64,000 bases of DNA. Source: Nymphaea colorata (lineage: Eukaryota > Streptophyta > Magnoliopsida > Nymphaeales > Nymphaeaceae). A program made the translations under genes and the position numbers. This document shows, in pieces, positions 6,813-35,300 of the stretch; the stretch's first letter is position 1; every line of letters starts with the position of its first letter. The stretch is taken from contig NC_045140.1 of the NCBI RefSeq assembly GCF_008831285.2, forward strand, positions 27,732,131 through 27,796,130, written 5' to 3'. The notes beneath the pieces were generated by a model that searched no databases, had not been told where the DNA came from, and saw only the letters and a list, made by a program, of their open reading frames with translations.

Positions 6813-7727
6813 ATGACGAGATATAAAGAGCCCATTTCCAAGTTCAGATTGGGTTCCCTATCTAGCACGAGTAAAGAGAGAGAGTGTGTCCCATTCTAAT
6901 TTCAGATTGAGTTTGAATACCAGTAGAAGGACATTTTAGAAGAAGAATGACAATGGTCAAGTCTGAACATGGATCTACCTTGGTTGGTTGAACTCCTTTA
7001 CCAGCCAAACAATCTCTTTTAACTCCTCATCGTTTTATAACTCCGAGGAGGACTTGCCAATTCATGATGTAAGTAGAAGTTTGAGCTTTACAGAAGCTAC
7101 CAAAGAAATAATCAAATGTGTATAGTTGCTTTTGAATGCAAAGAGCTTGTATAACATGACAACTTCACATAACTTCCAATTAAGTAGAGCAATGTATGTT
7201 ATCAAGCTCCAACGATATCAAACTTAGAAGTTTGTCCCACCACAGATCGGCAAAAATATCATTGGGTATAAATTAAACTATGGACAAAAAAAAAGAAAAG
7301 CATGCAAGAAATATATATTATTAAAAGATGTTCTCATCATTGGCCTAACTTTGAACGGCGCCAATGAAAAGGAAGCGATGCAAAAAAATTGGCCGATTTT
7401 TTAATATCGTCAAATTGGCCTCGTGTTTCGAACCGAAAATAGACCATTCAAATTGAATCAACTAGTTCGTTATTGTCCCTCTTTTATTTTGAGATTTTAC
7501 AGCTATAAAGCTGATTTTCTCTGAATCGCCAGCCAGAAAATTGATCAATGTGAATTGGATTTTTTGTAGATTTTTTTTTTCATTTTTTAAAAATATTCTT
7601 CTGTTTTTGAAATTTTAATTTAAAATAATACCTTAAAAAGACCAATCAAATTCATGTTTCCCATTTTTGGCTTTGATTTTTTTCCATTTCATTCCCAAAA
7701 GTCCTTTTATGGATCGACATCGTCATC

Positions 7728-7736
7728 TCTATATAG
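7728..7736 (+). promoter_or_regulatory. Putative TATA box of the DEFL gene
   Basis: TCTATATAG lies about 90 bp upstream of the DEFL start codon. The duplicated copy has CTATAAAAT at the corresponding place (11590-11598), which supports it as the core promoter. Confidence 0.5.
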
Positions 7737-7820
7737 ACACCTTCTATCAGCAGCCCTTTTCACCAAAGAAATTAACTAGCGGCCAAGTCCAATTGGAGGG
7801 AACCATCAACGAAAGAAGCC

Positions 7821-8190
7821 ATGAAATCCCAGACGTTTCTGTTGGTCCTCATAGCCATCCTCATCTTCTCTTTCGGTAAGCCTATTTAACTCGCTGCTTT
7901 TGCCATCATCATCCTCCTTCTCGTCTTCAACATGAAACCTACCATCATCATCATCACGACTTTTAGCTGCTGGATTGTTTTTAAATATTGCTTGGTTGGG
8001 CGCAGGTACGCAGGAAGCATTTTCCAGAGTGGTGGCCGAGGGTAAGCTGCCATGCAGCAAGGTGCTGGACGATAAAAACTGCGTGCCGCTGCAATGCAAA
8101 CTAGAGTGTGCAACTCAATACGAGGGGAATGGTGTATGTACAGTGCGCATCGATCGGCCTCCTATGTGTGTCTGTTCTTACCCTTGTTGA
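7821..8190 (+). CDS. Defensin-like (DEFL/LCR) secreted cysteine-rich peptide
   Basis: Two exons, 7821-7875 and 8006-8190, encode 79 residues. Exon 1 gives a hydrophobic signal peptide (MKSQTFLLVLIAILIFSFG). A phase-1 intron with GTAAGC and GCAG borders then lies near the end of the signal peptide, the usual DEFL gene structure. The mature part has eight cysteines at residues 35, 44, 49, 53, 63, 73, 75 and 79. The CxxxC at 49-53 and CxC at 73-75 are the hallmark of the cysteine-stabilised alpha-beta fold, and the peptide ends on the last cysteine. Such peptides are secreted and act in antimicrobial defence or in cell-cell signalling, for example in reproduction; the sequence does not say which. 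The start is the only ATG before the signal sequence. Confidence 0.85.
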
Positions 8191-9409
8191 AATGACACCT
8201 TTATAGAAGGCGAAGGATCAAATGGCGCTCCTCATGAATGAAAAAAATCCTTCCCCTTTCTGTTGTCAACCAAACAAGAACTTTAACTTCTTATTGCCAT
8301 CTTAGGTTCTTCTAGTTGAGTTCAATGTAAGAAGTTTAACTACAAGCTTATGTAACAGTACATCAGATGTATCCAATGTCTCATGCTGCTCTGTATTTGA
8401 AGTTAAAGATGCTATCTAGATGGTTAATTTTATGATGGATCAGTCCTTGGGTTGATATAGTCCGGCGTGCATATAACTACAGTCATTTTGAATCATTATA
8501 AGTAAAAGCCTATCAAAACCTCCATGTAAACTAATTAATGTGGTTGTGGACATATATTCTTGGTTTATAGAAATTGTTCATCTGGTTTTGGAATTTTGAG
8601 AAGGAAATCGAAATAGGATTTCTAAAGTTTATGTCACGGTTCTTTTTAAATGCATTTGAGTTCCACAAGACCAATCTCGAGCTCCAAAGTAGGGAGGTCA
8701 GCAGATCTGATTCAAATAAGGTATACCCTTAACCATATTTGTTTGTTCAGATTTTCACATATTAGAATTTGACCAAAGAAAAGTCGTATCTGAATCTGAA
8801 TCAAAAATCTGATTTTAAGATCTGTATTTGATCCAAATCTGATTTTTACATTTATATCTGAATCCAAATCCGAATTTTGAACCGAATTTGGCCGATTTTC
8901 AAGATGGAAGGGCATTAGATATATGATTTTGTTTAGAAGTAAATCTGATTCAAATCCACATTCAAATCCATCAGCTATTTATATATATCTAAATCCAAAT
9001 CTGATTGGATGTCATTTCTTAAATCTGAATATGATCCAATTTCTTAAACGGATATTATTATTTTTTACTTATCCGAACTTTTTTTGGGTTCGGTTCAATC
9101 AAGATGTTCGATCCAAATCAAACATATTGGCATACCACGTCCAAAGTACACATTCTTACACCAACCAAGTCAGAGGTCAATTGCAACACATTAATAAGCC
9201 GTGTAACTTGTATCGAGTTTGAGATGAAAGAAGTTACAACCTTATGATATTGAGATAGAAAAGAGAGACACCTGGTCGTCTCATTATGATAAACTCGTTC
9301 GCGGATTGAAATGATCAAATTAGCACCATATAGACATGTCATGATATGGGCGCTTGTCGCTTACCAAGGCACACGCATGTGAATCGACTTTTCATTAAAA
9401 ATATAGATT

Positions 9410-11035: not shown

Positions 11036-11667
11036 AATCTGGAATCAAAATTCCGTCGACCGTAGTTTCGAAATCGGTTGTTAATATCATAAGGTAGTTT
11101 GGCTTTTTAAAAGGCCGAACTCAAATTCATTTTTGAATGGAAAACAAGTCTGACTAGTATTGGATCCACATTTTGATCATAAAAGATTTAACAATTCAGA
11201 TTTATGGAATTAGATGCTCGCTCACATTCACATATATATGAAAATACCTCATTGGTTGGGGAAAAAATGTTATAAACCAAAAATAAGAAGCCAATTTCAT
11301 CCGAATCTAGTTATACACAGGCGGACCATTCTAAGAATGCTGGTGAAATTTCCTGCACAGCGTCCGGTAGCCGGTTCTAATAGACTACTCTTTCAAAAAG
11401 GAACATGAAGATCAAATGACTTCAAAATTATCCCAAAAAAGCAAGGGAAAAATAAATATTTTCTTTCCTGTGACACTCTGTGGCAATCTATCTATATATG
11501 TATATCCTAGATTTCAATGATTTACTCACTCATCAATGCAAGATTTTTTTTCCAGATACCATTTATGGCTCTCTCTCTCTCTCTCTCTCTATAAAATCAT
11601 CTTCAATCAGCAGGCCTTTCCCATCAAAAAGTCCAAGTAGAGGGAACATTCATTAGCTAAAGAAGCC

Positions 11668-11840
11668 ATGAAATCCCATATGTATACGCTTCTATTGATC
11701 CTTATAGCCATCTTCTTCTTGTCATCCTGTAAGCTCACCGCTTTTGCCATCACAATCTTCATCCTAGCCTTCGTCGTCGTTGTCATCAACAAGAAACCTA
11801 TCATCGTGATCAGTATGACTGCACCTTCTGGATTATCGGT
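11668..11840 (+). pseudogene. DEFL pseudogene: exon 1 and partial intron only
   Basis: The ATG at 11668 opens a signal-peptide-like exon (MKSHMYTLLLILIAIFFLSS) closely matching exon 1 of the DEFL gene at 7821, followed by the same GTAAGC donor. The intron continues collinearly with the functional copy (GCTTTTGCCATCA and AAACCTATCATC blocks) to about 11838. No acceptor followed by a cysteine-rich exon is found, and an unrelated inverted repeat occupies that place. The apparent 63-codon frame running through the old intron has no cysteine motif. It is a broken duplicate; whether it is still transcribed is unknown. Confidence 0.8.
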
Positions 11841-12015
11841 CATGCACACCCAAATTTGAAAAACGACCTTTATGTTATAATTTCTTATCAGCAGGCCAGA
11901 TGTTTTTTAATGATAAATTTTCAAAAGCAGTAGTGGAAGGTCCCCGCTGACAGAAGTCCTCCCAATTTATGGTGTCAGGAGGACTGTTCTCCAATTTTTT
12001 TTCCCTTCCTGCAAC

Positions 12016-12514
12016 ACTCGTCTTCTATTCTCCTGTCTCCCTCTGCTGCTTTTCTTGAAAATCTATTTCATTTGATGCAATTCAATTGTTCTGAGACCAA
12101 ATGTAACTCCTTTATCTGTTTCCTTAGTTGCTTTGGTTTTTGTTGCTATTGCAGACGTGTCTGTTCAATGTTAAACATTCATTGGACGGATGTAAGCAGA
12201 AGGTAAAGAAGCTGCTGCAAGAAATAAATGGTGGGTGATATTCTTCAAGTTCTTCATGACAATGAATGTTAACTTTGAACAGACCTATTTCTTGCATCAG
12301 CTTCTTTACCTTCTGCTGATATCCATGCTGATATCCATGACAGTGAAGATTAACTTTGAACAGACACATCTGCAAGAGCAACAAAGAAAGCAACTCAAAA
12401 ATCAGATAAAGGATCTAGATTTAGGCTCGGAACAACTAAATGGAATCAAATGAAATAGATTTTCAAGAAAAGCAACAGAGAGAGACAGGATAATAGAGGA
12501 TGAATATTATGGAC
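12016..12514. repeat. Inverted duplication of an HMA/HIPP gene fragment
   Basis: The left arm (about 12016-12232) and right arm (about 12255-12514) are reverse complements over more than 200 bp with moderate divergence. Read outward-in, each arm contains an intron-like pyrimidine-rich end (GTTGCTATTGCAG on plus, GTTGCTCTTGCAG on minus). This is followed by a frame resembling the start of a heavy-metal-associated domain: TCLFNVKHSLDGCKQKVKKL on plus from 12155, and MCLFKVNLHCH then QQKVKKLMQEI on minus from 12369. In HIPP proteins an intron lies just before the HMA domain, which matches. Each arm has lost one cysteine of the CxxC metal site, and the right arm has an internal tandem duplication. 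It is not a functional gene as it stands. Confidence 0.8.
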
Positions 12515-13600
12515 GCAGAAGAAAGAAGAAACAGGAGAAGGGGCTCCCCGGAGTAGCCCCTGACATGTTTGATAGCACGGGGAAACACTGTAGACTGGTT
12601 GAATCACGATTTCTTATTTTCCGAGCATTAAGCATTTTTTGTAATTTTTTCAAATCCATTATTTTTCATTAAATATTAAAAAAAGGGACGTGCATATTTT
12701 TTTTTCGAAATAATATGTTCTCCTCTAACTCTCTTCCATCTGGGTTCCGAAGCTGCCTGCAGAAAAAAAAACAAGCAGATACTTGTTCTGAAAACAAGAG
12801 CATCTTGGCAAACTTAATTTGAAACGACAGTGTAGGATAGAAATCCTTCACTTCACTTTTCCGTTTGAGTCTTCAAATTTTAAAATCCAATCCAAGAATG
12901 TAGCATGGGTCCTTTCTCAGAGACTCATTGGACGTATCATACGCGTCAAAGGGGACATTTTCGCACTCTGGTCTATATTTGATGTTGACGATGCAATCTA
13001 GATGGTTCATTTTATGAGGGATCACTCCTTGAGTTGATATAGTCCGGCGCCCAAGTAATTAAAGTCATTAAATGTATATCTGAATCCGAATCTCAATCTG
13101 AATTAGAATTTTGAACTGAATTTGGTTGTTTCTCAAAATGTAAGGGCATTAGATAAAGGATATTGTTTAAAAATAAATCTAATTTGAATCTGATCGGATA
13201 CTTTTAGAACAGTTCAACCACATATCTGATCCAAATCAGATGTTTTGACATCCTTACCAAAAGTGTCACATTCTTACACCAAGTGGAGGGCCAACTGCTA
13301 CAAAATAATAAGCCGTGCAACTTGTACCAAGTTTGAGATTAAGCAGATATATAGACACACACATATACCTACAGAGCAATTCAACCACATTTCAACAATG
13401 CTGAAAAAAAGCAACCTCAAAATCGGATGTTTAGATTTTCAACCAAAAAGTAGAATGATTTTGTTCGTGTTTTAAGTTTCAAGGCACGGGAGAATCAACG
13501 TCTTAAGTCAGGGACAGGGATGGTGCAGATAGTTTTGAAAAACATCTCCGCAGTCCAATTTAAGATCCATCAGATTTACTTACAGAAAAGCCAAACAACA

Positions 13601-32300: not shown

Positions 32301-35300
32301 TGCAAATTTTCTAACTTTTGGTCAATTTGCATCTTTATGGTTATCTAAGATAACTGTCACATCTGTGTCTATTCCATGAATTCATGGTCCCGAGTATAAA
32401 CAATTTTTGTGATTTGCAGGTATGACAGTGGTGGGCACCTGTTCTTGCCTTCTTATATCATGCGCACTCATGGAGCAAAGCAACAGCGTGTTGCACTTAA
32501 AAGTGTTCCAAAGGACCAACTGAAGAAAGTATCTGAGGTCAGGGTCTCCCACTACTGACAGAAAACAATTTCTATTGATCACCTCACTTGAGGACCTATT
32601 TCAGTAGCTAACATGTATATTCGTAACTATCTTTTTCTTTACTGCAATTCAGCTCAATAAACATTATTATGAAGAGAAAAAGGTTTATGATTTATGAAGC
32701 ATCCCATTGAAAGAAAACTAAAAAGTTTGTTGGTCTTCATAAAGCTTAAAATTTGCTAAATTATGGGGTTATGGTTAAAATGTTGTACTCCACGTGGTCC
32801 TTCTTTCTAGATGTTAGGACAGGTTCCTGGCAGGCTAAAAACCTCTTGAGCAAGTGCTATCATCTATTTTGGATCACGGTTTGTGGAGAGCATGATTGTA
32901 GCTCATGACAAACAATGGTTGCAATTGCTTGAACAGTAGGTCTGTTCCTTAAAATGATTAAATATTTATGATTTTCTCTTGGATTCTTTTTAGTTTCTGT
33001 TTAGTGAATAGGAATGAGCTGAGGCACATATAGCATTTCCTTCTTTTAACTTTTGTTGAAAGTAGTTCCTTTTGCCATTTCATGTGCTGCAGTATGGCTA
33101 TGGAATATGATGCTATGTAGATCCACAATAAGCCATTCATATTTTATAATCCTTAGGGGTAAATTATTAGAAAACTTAAGAGGTTGAACCTGTTGTGATT
33201 GTTAAAGGAGTCACTGTTTCTCTCCTAGATCGGTACATACATTTGGTGCCAAATCTAGTAACATCTAGGCCCAGCTCAATTAACACTCATCCAGCTCAAT
33301 TAACACTCATCCTTTTCATTGGAATTAACACTCGTAGTTCAGTTGTTAGTCGTGACCAGCTCAAAACCATAAATGGACAAATTACACTCTGAACTAAAAA
33401 GATCTAAATTCAACTTTAGACCATTTAATTTATTGGGCCAGTATTTCCACTTGAGGATTTATGAGTATGATACTGATGGGCTGGATACATAAAGCATCCA
33501 GTTCATTGGCAATTTGATGTGTCTAATAAGTTTTTTTCTAGTGAATGAAGTTCATAGCTTCATCATTTCTAGGATGGAAGAGAATGAAGGAAATCTAGGA
33601 AAATGATGGAGAATATTGTGCTTATTATACTATTTCGGGTGAAGTGCAGTCCTTGCCAATTTCCTTCTCCCCACAAGCCAAGTGAAAATTTGAAAAGTAA
33701 AACTTAATGGTAGGTAAACTGGTCTCTCTCTCTATTCTCTTGAACGAACATTCTCAATATCGTATAGGTTTTGAGTAGCTTGTGATCAGACATTTAGATC
33801 ACTCTGGGAATTATGCACGATAAAGACAATGTATTAACCCCACAACTTTTTATCACCTAGGGATTCTGTCACCATATGCACACCAACAATATCGTTGGAG
33901 ATGATTATATATATCCATGAACTCTGCATGTATATACTCATGCATGCATGAATTTCTGCATATTGACATGTTGCACATGACATCTCAGTTGAGTCATGTC
34001 AGTTGTTTTATTCTTGTCTTCATTGTGATGGCAGAGCACATTTCATATACTGCTTTATTGTAGTTTGTAGATTTTCCTTTTTATGTTTGGGTTCAGTTTC
34101 ATCTTAGAGTTGTGCTATGTGGGAGTACTTGTTGATGGTGGTGAAATTATCCAGGCCCTTGATATTCTTGGAAGCACAAAATGGAGGGTGAACAGAAGAG
34201 TGCTTGATGTAGTTGATAGCTTGTGGGCATGTGGACAACCTCTTGCTGGCTTGGTAGATCGCAATGACGTGAGGCTTCTCGACTTCATCATGCCTTTCTG
34301 TTATTTTTTGCCAATTTTTTTTTTCATTTTTAGTCTTGTAAAATTCTTTTTTAGGTTCCTTTGCCTGAGAAGCCATGCACTGAAGATGAAGCACAAATGA
34401 GGCAATGGAGGTGGAATGTCAAAAAAGTAAAAAAGGAAAATAGTGAGAGGCATGCTCAGAGATGTGATATTGAACTTAAACTTTCGGTAAAATCCATATA
34501 AGTGCCTTAGGCTTTCTTTCATATCTCTTGCTTATTTGTACATCCTATAGTGCAAATTTAATTTTTATTGATGAAGCATAGTCTTGCATTTGTAGGTGGC
34601 AAGGAAAATGAGAAAGGAAGATGGCTTTTATTATCCACATAATCTAGATTTCCGAGGACGTGCCTATCCCATGCATCCACACTTAAATCATCTTGGTTCT
34701 GATCTTTGCCGTGGAATTTTGGAGTTCGCTGAAGGAAAGCCACTAGGAAAAAGTGGATTGCATTGGTTAAAGGTACACTTGGCAAACTTGTACGGTGGCG
34801 GTGTAGACAAGCTTTCATATGATGGGCGGTTGATGTTCATTGAGAACCACTTGGCGGATATATTTGATTCGGCAGAAAGGCCCATTGAAGGAAGGCGTTG
34901 GTGGTTAAATGCTGAAGATCCATTTCAGTGCTTGGCTGCTTGTATTGATCTGTCCAATGCATTAAAAAGCCCTTCTCCAGAAAATGCTGTTTCACACATT
35001 CCAGTTCATCTGGTAAGTTCATTAGTAATACGAGAAGCGGCACATATATTTGAGGTCACATAATAATCTTGCAGTATCCTCAGCTATAGTGATTCTATAG
35101 GGCCTGAGACCTAATGAAGCATTACTCCCAATGGCTCAAGCCAGTGAAGTTTGTGATTGGTATCGCAATGAATTGATTATTGACGTACTATGAAAACATG
35201 GAGATGTCTAGGTTTATTTGTTTCTTGTAATATTTGATCGTGTGTGCAATCCAAAAAGCTGCATAGGCAGACAGAAATGGTATCCTTCATGCAAGAATGA

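Follow-up and report, generated by a model that had tools for sequence, protein, structure and literature searches.

HIPP-derived inverted repeats within a broken peptide gene of Nymphaea colorata: a probably decaying pseudogene family that could feed siRNAs

Why does a water lily carry two pieces of a HIPP gene folded back on one another inside a cluster of cysteine-rich peptide genes? Allen et al. are said to have described, in 2004, an origin of plant MIRNA genes by inverted duplication, and a first-pass annotation of a 64,000-nucleotide stretch of Nymphaea colorata C3 (C3:27732131-27796130, hereafter the window) had proposed such a duplication at 12016..12514 as a newborn small-RNA locus. 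We therefore asked what the repeat, which lies at window positions 12013-12508, is made of, how old it is, and whether it could give rise to small RNAs against a HIPP gene.

A repeat search of the window bore out the inverted duplication, resolving it into three arm pairs that are co-linear between 12013 and 12508:

12013-12142 and 12379-12508: outer arm pair, 130 nt, 82% complementary.
12139-12198 and 12326-12385: middle arm pair, 60 nt, 77% complementary.
12188-12226 and 12286-12324: inner arm pair, 39 nt, 92% complementary.

A scan of the full window by ungapped extension, set to inverted repeats no shorter than 60 nt whose arms lie within 3 kb of each other, returned two pairs, both part of this structure, and no others. 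When folded as RNA, 12010-12512 reached a minimum free energy of -249.3 kcal/mol (z -22.8), whereas shuffled sequences averaged -113.4, and none of 100 equaled it. A transcript had been expected to form a hairpin of more than 200 bp, and the predicted foldback agrees with this:

12018..12503, + strand: predicted foldback, 486 nt, from the RNA fold of 12010-12512.
12139..12385, + strand: predicted inner foldback containing exon 2, 247 nt (minimum free energy -115.9 kcal/mol, z -12.45).

None of 200 shuffles folded as well as the inner part. Where the foldback is made of exon 2, an unbroken helix of 20 bp is followed by one mismatch and then 8 more pairs.

We searched the genome (407.8 Mb, 783 contigs) for the parental HIPP gene. 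The repeat gave 28 DNA matches, 26 on C3, itself included, and two on C9, one for each arm and both at a single place. This place holds an intact HIPP gene with three exons, as read from the sequence, and a predicted product of 491 aa that has the two marks of a HIPP, an HMA domain (PF00403, 56.6 bits against a cut-off of 24.8) and a C-terminal CaaX isoprenylation motif (the protein ends in NSCSIM). Since an intact HIPP relative is present in the same genome, and the arms do align to it, the possibility that they match no HIPP gene falls away. The left arm is 82% identical to the C9 gene over 236 columns (window 12018-12252) and the right arm 76% over 227 columns, in opposite orientation, as the first-pass annotation had read them. 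It had also described an intron followed by about 25 HMA codons; the arms indeed cover most of intron 1 and the 76-nt exon 2, which encodes 25 codons of the HMA domain. The HIPP-derived features of the window copy are as follows:

12013..12252, + strand: left arm, HIPP-derived, sense; part of intron 1, exon 2 and the first bases of intron 2 (by alignment, 82% to the C9 HIPP gene).
12155..12230, + strand: left-arm piece derived from exon 2, aligned with the 76-nt exon 2 of the C9 gene.
12255..12284, - strand: partial second copy of the 5' sequence of right-arm exon 2, 30 nt, lying in the loop as a direct repeat.
12285..12508, - strand: right arm, HIPP-derived and antisense with respect to the + strand, made up of exon 2 and intron 1 (76% to the C9 HIPP gene).

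The acceptor AG before the left-arm exon 2 ends at 12154, and the 30-nt piece at 12255..12284 matches, by BLAST, the right arms of other copies and HIPP. Exon 3 of the C9 gene (L009 5188-5454) contains a CAG/glutamine repeat, probably low complexity, that gave several Rfam matches below threshold on the minus strand.

The repeat sequence occurs at eight places on C3, in two clusters at 27.275-27.316 and 27.674-27.744 Mb. Both arms are found at six of them (the window copy, W744, and c275, c725, c311, c674 and c700) and the right arm only at the other two (c316 at 27.316 Mb and c696 at 27.696 Mb). Five of the two-arm copies are long, with arms of about 420-580 nt that start in HIPP intron 1, span exon 2 and intron 2 and reach the start of exon 3; because introns are retained in the arms, the duplication took place at the DNA level. 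The window copy is shortened, and its loop is short, as the first-pass annotation had noted, because the inner part that is present in these five copies is missing from it. We built a tree of 15 rows, comprising six left arms, eight right arms and the C9 HIPP gene as the sole outside row. The left arms formed one clade (100/99) and the right arms another (100/100), and the groupings (275,725) and (311,(674,700)) were found in both, the inner (674,700) forks being weaker (94/94 and 86/87). Separate arm clades with matching inner groupings indicate that the repeat predates the copying of the locus. HIPP, the left arms and the right arms meet in a three-way fork, so an origin from two gene copies stays compatible with the tree; the arms may derive from two related gene copies, or one arm from the other.

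Parts of the two C3 clusters are inverted duplicates of each other, at 98.4% over 3.6 kb and 98.6% over 7.9 kb, and these parts appear to be recent; other parts are about 92% alike. Overall, the clusters (27.275-27.33 and 27.67-27.74 Mb) are largely mirror images. This arrangement may reflect segmental duplication with conversion, or may partly be an assembly effect.

The surroundings of the window copy are those of a peptide gene. Upstream lies a complete gene of the SLR1-BP type, and the repeat is flanked on either side by remnants of a second one:

7821..8190, + strand: complete gene for a cysteine-rich peptide of the SLR1-BP type (PF07333), the intact template paralogue (46.1 bits against a cut-off of 22.7).
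11586..11834, + strand: 5' part of a duplicated SLR1-BP-type gene (67% to 7726-7976).
12956..13342, + strand: 3' flank of the broken SLR1-BP-type gene (matches to 8374-8487, 8856-8956 and 9039-9228).

Exon 2 of the complete gene has the eight cysteines of the SLR1-BP type, as counted in the sequence, and 97% copies of this exon are found at five further places (two in L049, two in L050 and one in L051), so that the gene has close relatives in its neighborhood on C3. The segment at 7726-7976 comprises the TATA box, exon 1 and part of the intron of the complete gene; its counterpart at 11586..11834 has a TATA box at 11590, an ATG at 11668 and a splice donor GT at 11729, and is presumed to be the promoter of a + strand hairpin transcript. 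In the loci searched, no hairpin has peptide-gene exon 2 next to it. Together with the flank matches, this means that the insert carrying the repeat occupies the place of exon 2 and the 3' part of the peptide gene, a position that hints at a way in which repeats of this kind may acquire a promoter. The upstream part is complete next to four of the eight places (W744, c311, c674 and c700). TATA box, ATG and splice donor are kept in W744, c311 and c700, and c674 has the TATA box without the ATGAAAT motif. At c275 and c725 the upstream part is absent next to the hairpin, a 149-base remnant lying about 2.8 kb upstream of c275, and c316 and c696 have its outer portion only. As a speculative point, the peptide-gene donor at 11729 could join the HIPP-derived acceptor at 12154, and such splicing would cut out the half of the left arm that is intron, so that a shorter exon-2 hairpin is left. 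Elsewhere in the window, an ORF at 34596-35063 resembles, by eye, part of a phage-type (organellar) RNA polymerase.

How long have the arms been apart? Between the arms of the long copies, intron positions differ at 85 of 321 sites in c275, 81 of 321 in c725, 80 of 317 in c311, 79 of 318 in c674 and 80 of 318 in c700, or about 25%; for the window copy, in intron 1 only, the count is 24 of 137 (18%). Differences at a quarter of sites correspond to a Jukes-Cantor distance of about 0.30. Neutral sites in plants change at 6-7e-9 per site and year, and the divergence of the arms would thus be of the order of 20 million years old, as an order of magnitude only. A repeat with introns this far apart is not newborn, and the first-pass annotation's "newborn" finds no support either in the presence of the repeat at several loci, whose left and right arms group in the same way. 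Its interpretation therefore survives in part: the HIPP arms, the foldback and the match to HIPP stand, but the recent birth does not.

Both arms have the same exon-3 deletions relative to the C9 gene, and both read TAG where HIPP has a CAG codon (one that the right arm reaches in only two of the five long copies). The piece had thus probably become a pseudogene before it was duplicated; a shorter HIPP paralogue, since lost, would also explain the deletions. We considered a coding gene and rejected it, as the left-arm exon 2 is one base short in five of six copies and in the remaining one, W744, has two offsetting one-base indels between which the frame is shifted. Splicing of peptide-gene exon 1 to the HIPP-like exon, as presumed, would give a reading frame of 26 residues that ends in a stop. 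Right-arm exon 2 has kept its 76-base length in all five long copies, so this arm may earlier have been under coding constraint.

If transcribed, the right arm (12285..12508) would supply guides complementary to HIPP mRNA. In line with the similarity to HIPP proposed earlier, 10 of 237 right-arm 21-mers of W744 (12255-12511) lie within one mismatch of the C9 HIPP mRNA. The corresponding counts are 11 of 521 in c275, 10 of 521 in c725, 21 of 456 in c311, 8 of 461 in c674 and 12 of 461 in c700, and, for the copies with a right arm only, 0 of 193 in c316 and 0 of 195 in c696; a perfect right-arm 21-mer occurs in none of the eight copies. The best 21-mer of the window has a single mismatch, at guide position 1, and a score of 1 under a TargetFinder-like rule. 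We also searched the genome for a 24-nt core of exon 2, accepting C or T at one position and up to 3 mismatches. Of the 15 matches, 12 lie in the hairpin copies, one in the C9 HIPP gene and two at other places, against one match for a reversed-pattern control, and the core is present within 2 mismatches in both arms of all six two-arm copies. Among the 95 HMA-like places listed at E up to 1, a lower bound on their number, the core meets the C9 gene only.

Has pairing between the arms been maintained? Changes on the + strand showed no pair-preserving excess, with 50 G:U against 67 pair-breaking A:C columns, and therefore no sign of maintained + strand pairing. An A:C difference becomes G:U when read from the other strand, so the same columns give 67 G:U against 50 A:C on the - strand (one-sided p 0.07), and a minus-strand hairpin may be under weak constraint. 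Where the arm consensuses agree, we counted 24 G:U changes, 39 A:C changes, 61 transversions and one two-sided matching change in 2098 cells. The main result for constraint came from exon 2, in which the arm consensuses of the five long copies are alike at 68 of 75 positions, as against 281 of 366 elsewhere (p 0.0035, a value affected by poorly alignable T-runs in intron 2) or 149 of 186 in intron 1 and exon 3 (p 0.026); this test was chosen post hoc and is a single comparison among related copies. Such likeness would be consistent with an exonic siRNA region under selection. The selection tests were otherwise mostly negative. Within right arms, mean identity was no better in exon 2 (0.922) than in the introns (0.926 and 0.938); within left arms, it was somewhat better (0.967 versus 0.942 and 0.885). 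Near-perfect 21-mers were not clustered in exon 2 above shuffles in any of the six two-arm copies, the lowest fraction being 0.11, for W744. The minimum-energy folds of all six retain unbroken helices of 17-30 bp.

We then compared the repeat with known classes of small-RNA loci. A guideline of at most 300 nt is given for plant MIRNA precursors, an excess being a warning and not a failure (PMC12594335); the full foldback of 486 nt is over this length and the inner 247-nt part within it. The same source asks for a miRNA/miRNA* duplex of 20-24 nt that has up to 5 mismatches, asymmetric bulges no larger than 3 and a 2-nt 3' overhang, and for at least 75% of the hairpin's sRNA-seq reads to come from one duplex. 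A duplex of 20-24 nt could form in the exon-2 part, because of its 20-bp helix and the 8 pairs across the mismatch. In Rfam, no microRNA family scored over its gathering threshold on the window copy, the best match being MIR2646, at 63.1 bits against 245. We rejected homology to MIR2646 (E 1.6e-12), as the match consists mostly of pairing, with little identity of letters, and scores far below gathering. On the other copies, none of 17 matches (E up to 1) reached the gathering score, and relatives of the window copy had sub-threshold matches to other hairpin families.

In structure, the repeat is like the rice inverted pseudogene pairs that are hairpin siRNA loci, with small RNAs mapped to the duplex (PMC2708354). 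As described there, these too are two decayed paralogous gene copies in opposite orientation; a pair on rice chromosome 6 has a 185-nt duplex of 83% identity, and the structural rule given (pseudogene pieces on opposite strands, a stem of more than 100 bp, a loop of less than 2 kb) describes our repeat as well; loci of this class also have small RNAs from one strand mapped to the duplex. Unlike the rice pairs in that account, the repeat has been multiplied and sits inside a broken peptide gene. Plant MIRNA genes of inverted-duplication origin (PMC3237417) likewise have arms with extended similarity to the target gene, here including introns, but the present repeat is longer and apparently decaying, and one precise product is not indicated. 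The S-locus dominance modifiers of Brassicaceae, with heterogeneous processing (PMC13128112), resemble it in that a small-RNA precursor, putative in our case, lies among pollen-side cysteine-rich peptide genes; the targets described there are the peptide genes, whereas the arms here are HIPP-derived, and we do not claim homology. In rice, miR408-5p, from MIR408, lowers HIPP19 by translational repression (PMC13229367). The lowering of a HIPP protein by a small RNA, known there, would be the shared feature; miR408-5p is not, as far as described, of HIPP origin. Among the papers listed on HIPP-derived inverted duplications or water-lily small RNAs, taken by title and start of abstract, none dealt with such a locus, and the word Nymphaea is absent from the main texts of PMC7917102 and PMC9698635.

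We favor, with reasonable though not high confidence, the reading that these loci are a decaying family of inverted-repeat HIPP pseudogenes that could, if transcribed, feed siRNAs against one HIPP gene. A truncated HIPP copy running from intron 1 to exon 3 would have been inverted-duplicated once and then placed at the former exon 2 of an SLR1-BP-type peptide gene, and the combined unit of repeat and peptide-gene parts would have been copied within the tandem gene cluster on C3. What the loci record directly is HIPP ancestry, the common origin and multiplication of the copies, a foldback and a sequence match to one HIPP gene. Transcription, dicing and silencing, which we infer, would proceed from the retained peptide-gene promoter on the + strand through a long imperfect hairpin to dicing by DCL2/3/4 into mixed 21-24-nt siRNAs; these could lower the C9 HIPP mRNA or direct methylation to the repeat itself and to the HIPP introns. 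The reading as a decaying family is supported by the balance of 50 G:U to 67 A:C columns and by the two of eight places that have the right arm only; the likeness of exon 2 between arms, the exon-2 core kept within 2 mismatches in every two-arm copy, the constant length of right-arm exon 2 in the long copies, the G:U balance on the - strand and a full upstream part at just four of eight places go against it.

An inert fossil, never or no longer transcribed, whose foldback is a by-product of inverted duplication in an often-duplicating cluster, is doubtful but has an appreciable chance. The solitary right arms, the intron divergence of about 25% between the arms of five copies, a right-arm exon 2 conserved no better than its introns and the patchy upstream part all favor it, but TATA box, ATG and splice donor are kept in three copies, unbroken helices of 17-30 bp persist in all six two-arm copies, and the left-arm exon 2 is somewhat better conserved than its introns. 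We regard as unlikely a functional young MIRNA or proto-MIRNA, in which the inner 247-nt foldback would yield a dominant 21-22-nt right-arm guide against the conserved CKQKVKKLLQ coding site of the C9 HIPP mRNA. The fold of that inner part (z -12.45), the best window 21-mer with its one mismatch at guide position 1, the conservation of exon 2 between arms, a core that meets no listed HMA-like place besides C9 HIPP and the rice precedent of miR408-5p and HIPP19, as described in PMC13229367, speak for such a gene. Against it are the unclustered near-perfect 21-mers in all six copies, the 486-nt length of the full foldback, a MIR2646 match that arises mainly through pairing and the lack of pairing selection on the + strand. 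A foldback or gene-capturing DNA transposon carrying HIPP pieces would account for inverted repeats, a captured gene piece and several copies, yet a single tandem gene cluster contains the copies and shares long flanks with them. DNA searches with the arms and with the upstream and downstream flanks, in which very common words were skipped and only the best candidates scored, found no dispersed copies; they gave the C3 clusters, C9 HIPP when the arms were the query and, when the upstream flank was, two short matches outside the clusters, one of 41 bases on C11 and one of 31 bases at another C3 position. We therefore rejected a transposon origin as very improbable.

A bolder version of the siRNA reading holds that the HIPP hairpin took over the promoter of the peptide gene, which is of the pollen-coat type, that a transcript restricted to anther or pollen gives siRNAs that silence the single HIPP gene in male reproductive tissue, and that exon 2 has been kept for this. 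We consider it a long shot; if true, an inverted repeat that has captured a promoter would link a cluster of cysteine-rich peptide genes to the regulation of a metal-binding gene, possibly in an early-diverging angiosperm. With the decaying pseudogene family that we favor, hairpin copies of common origin stand beside an intact relative and form a series in which the decay or recruitment of an inverted duplication can be watched. Should it give no small RNAs, the family would be a clean case of an unrecruited hairpin; should it give them, ideas on early MIRNA evolution could be tested on it.
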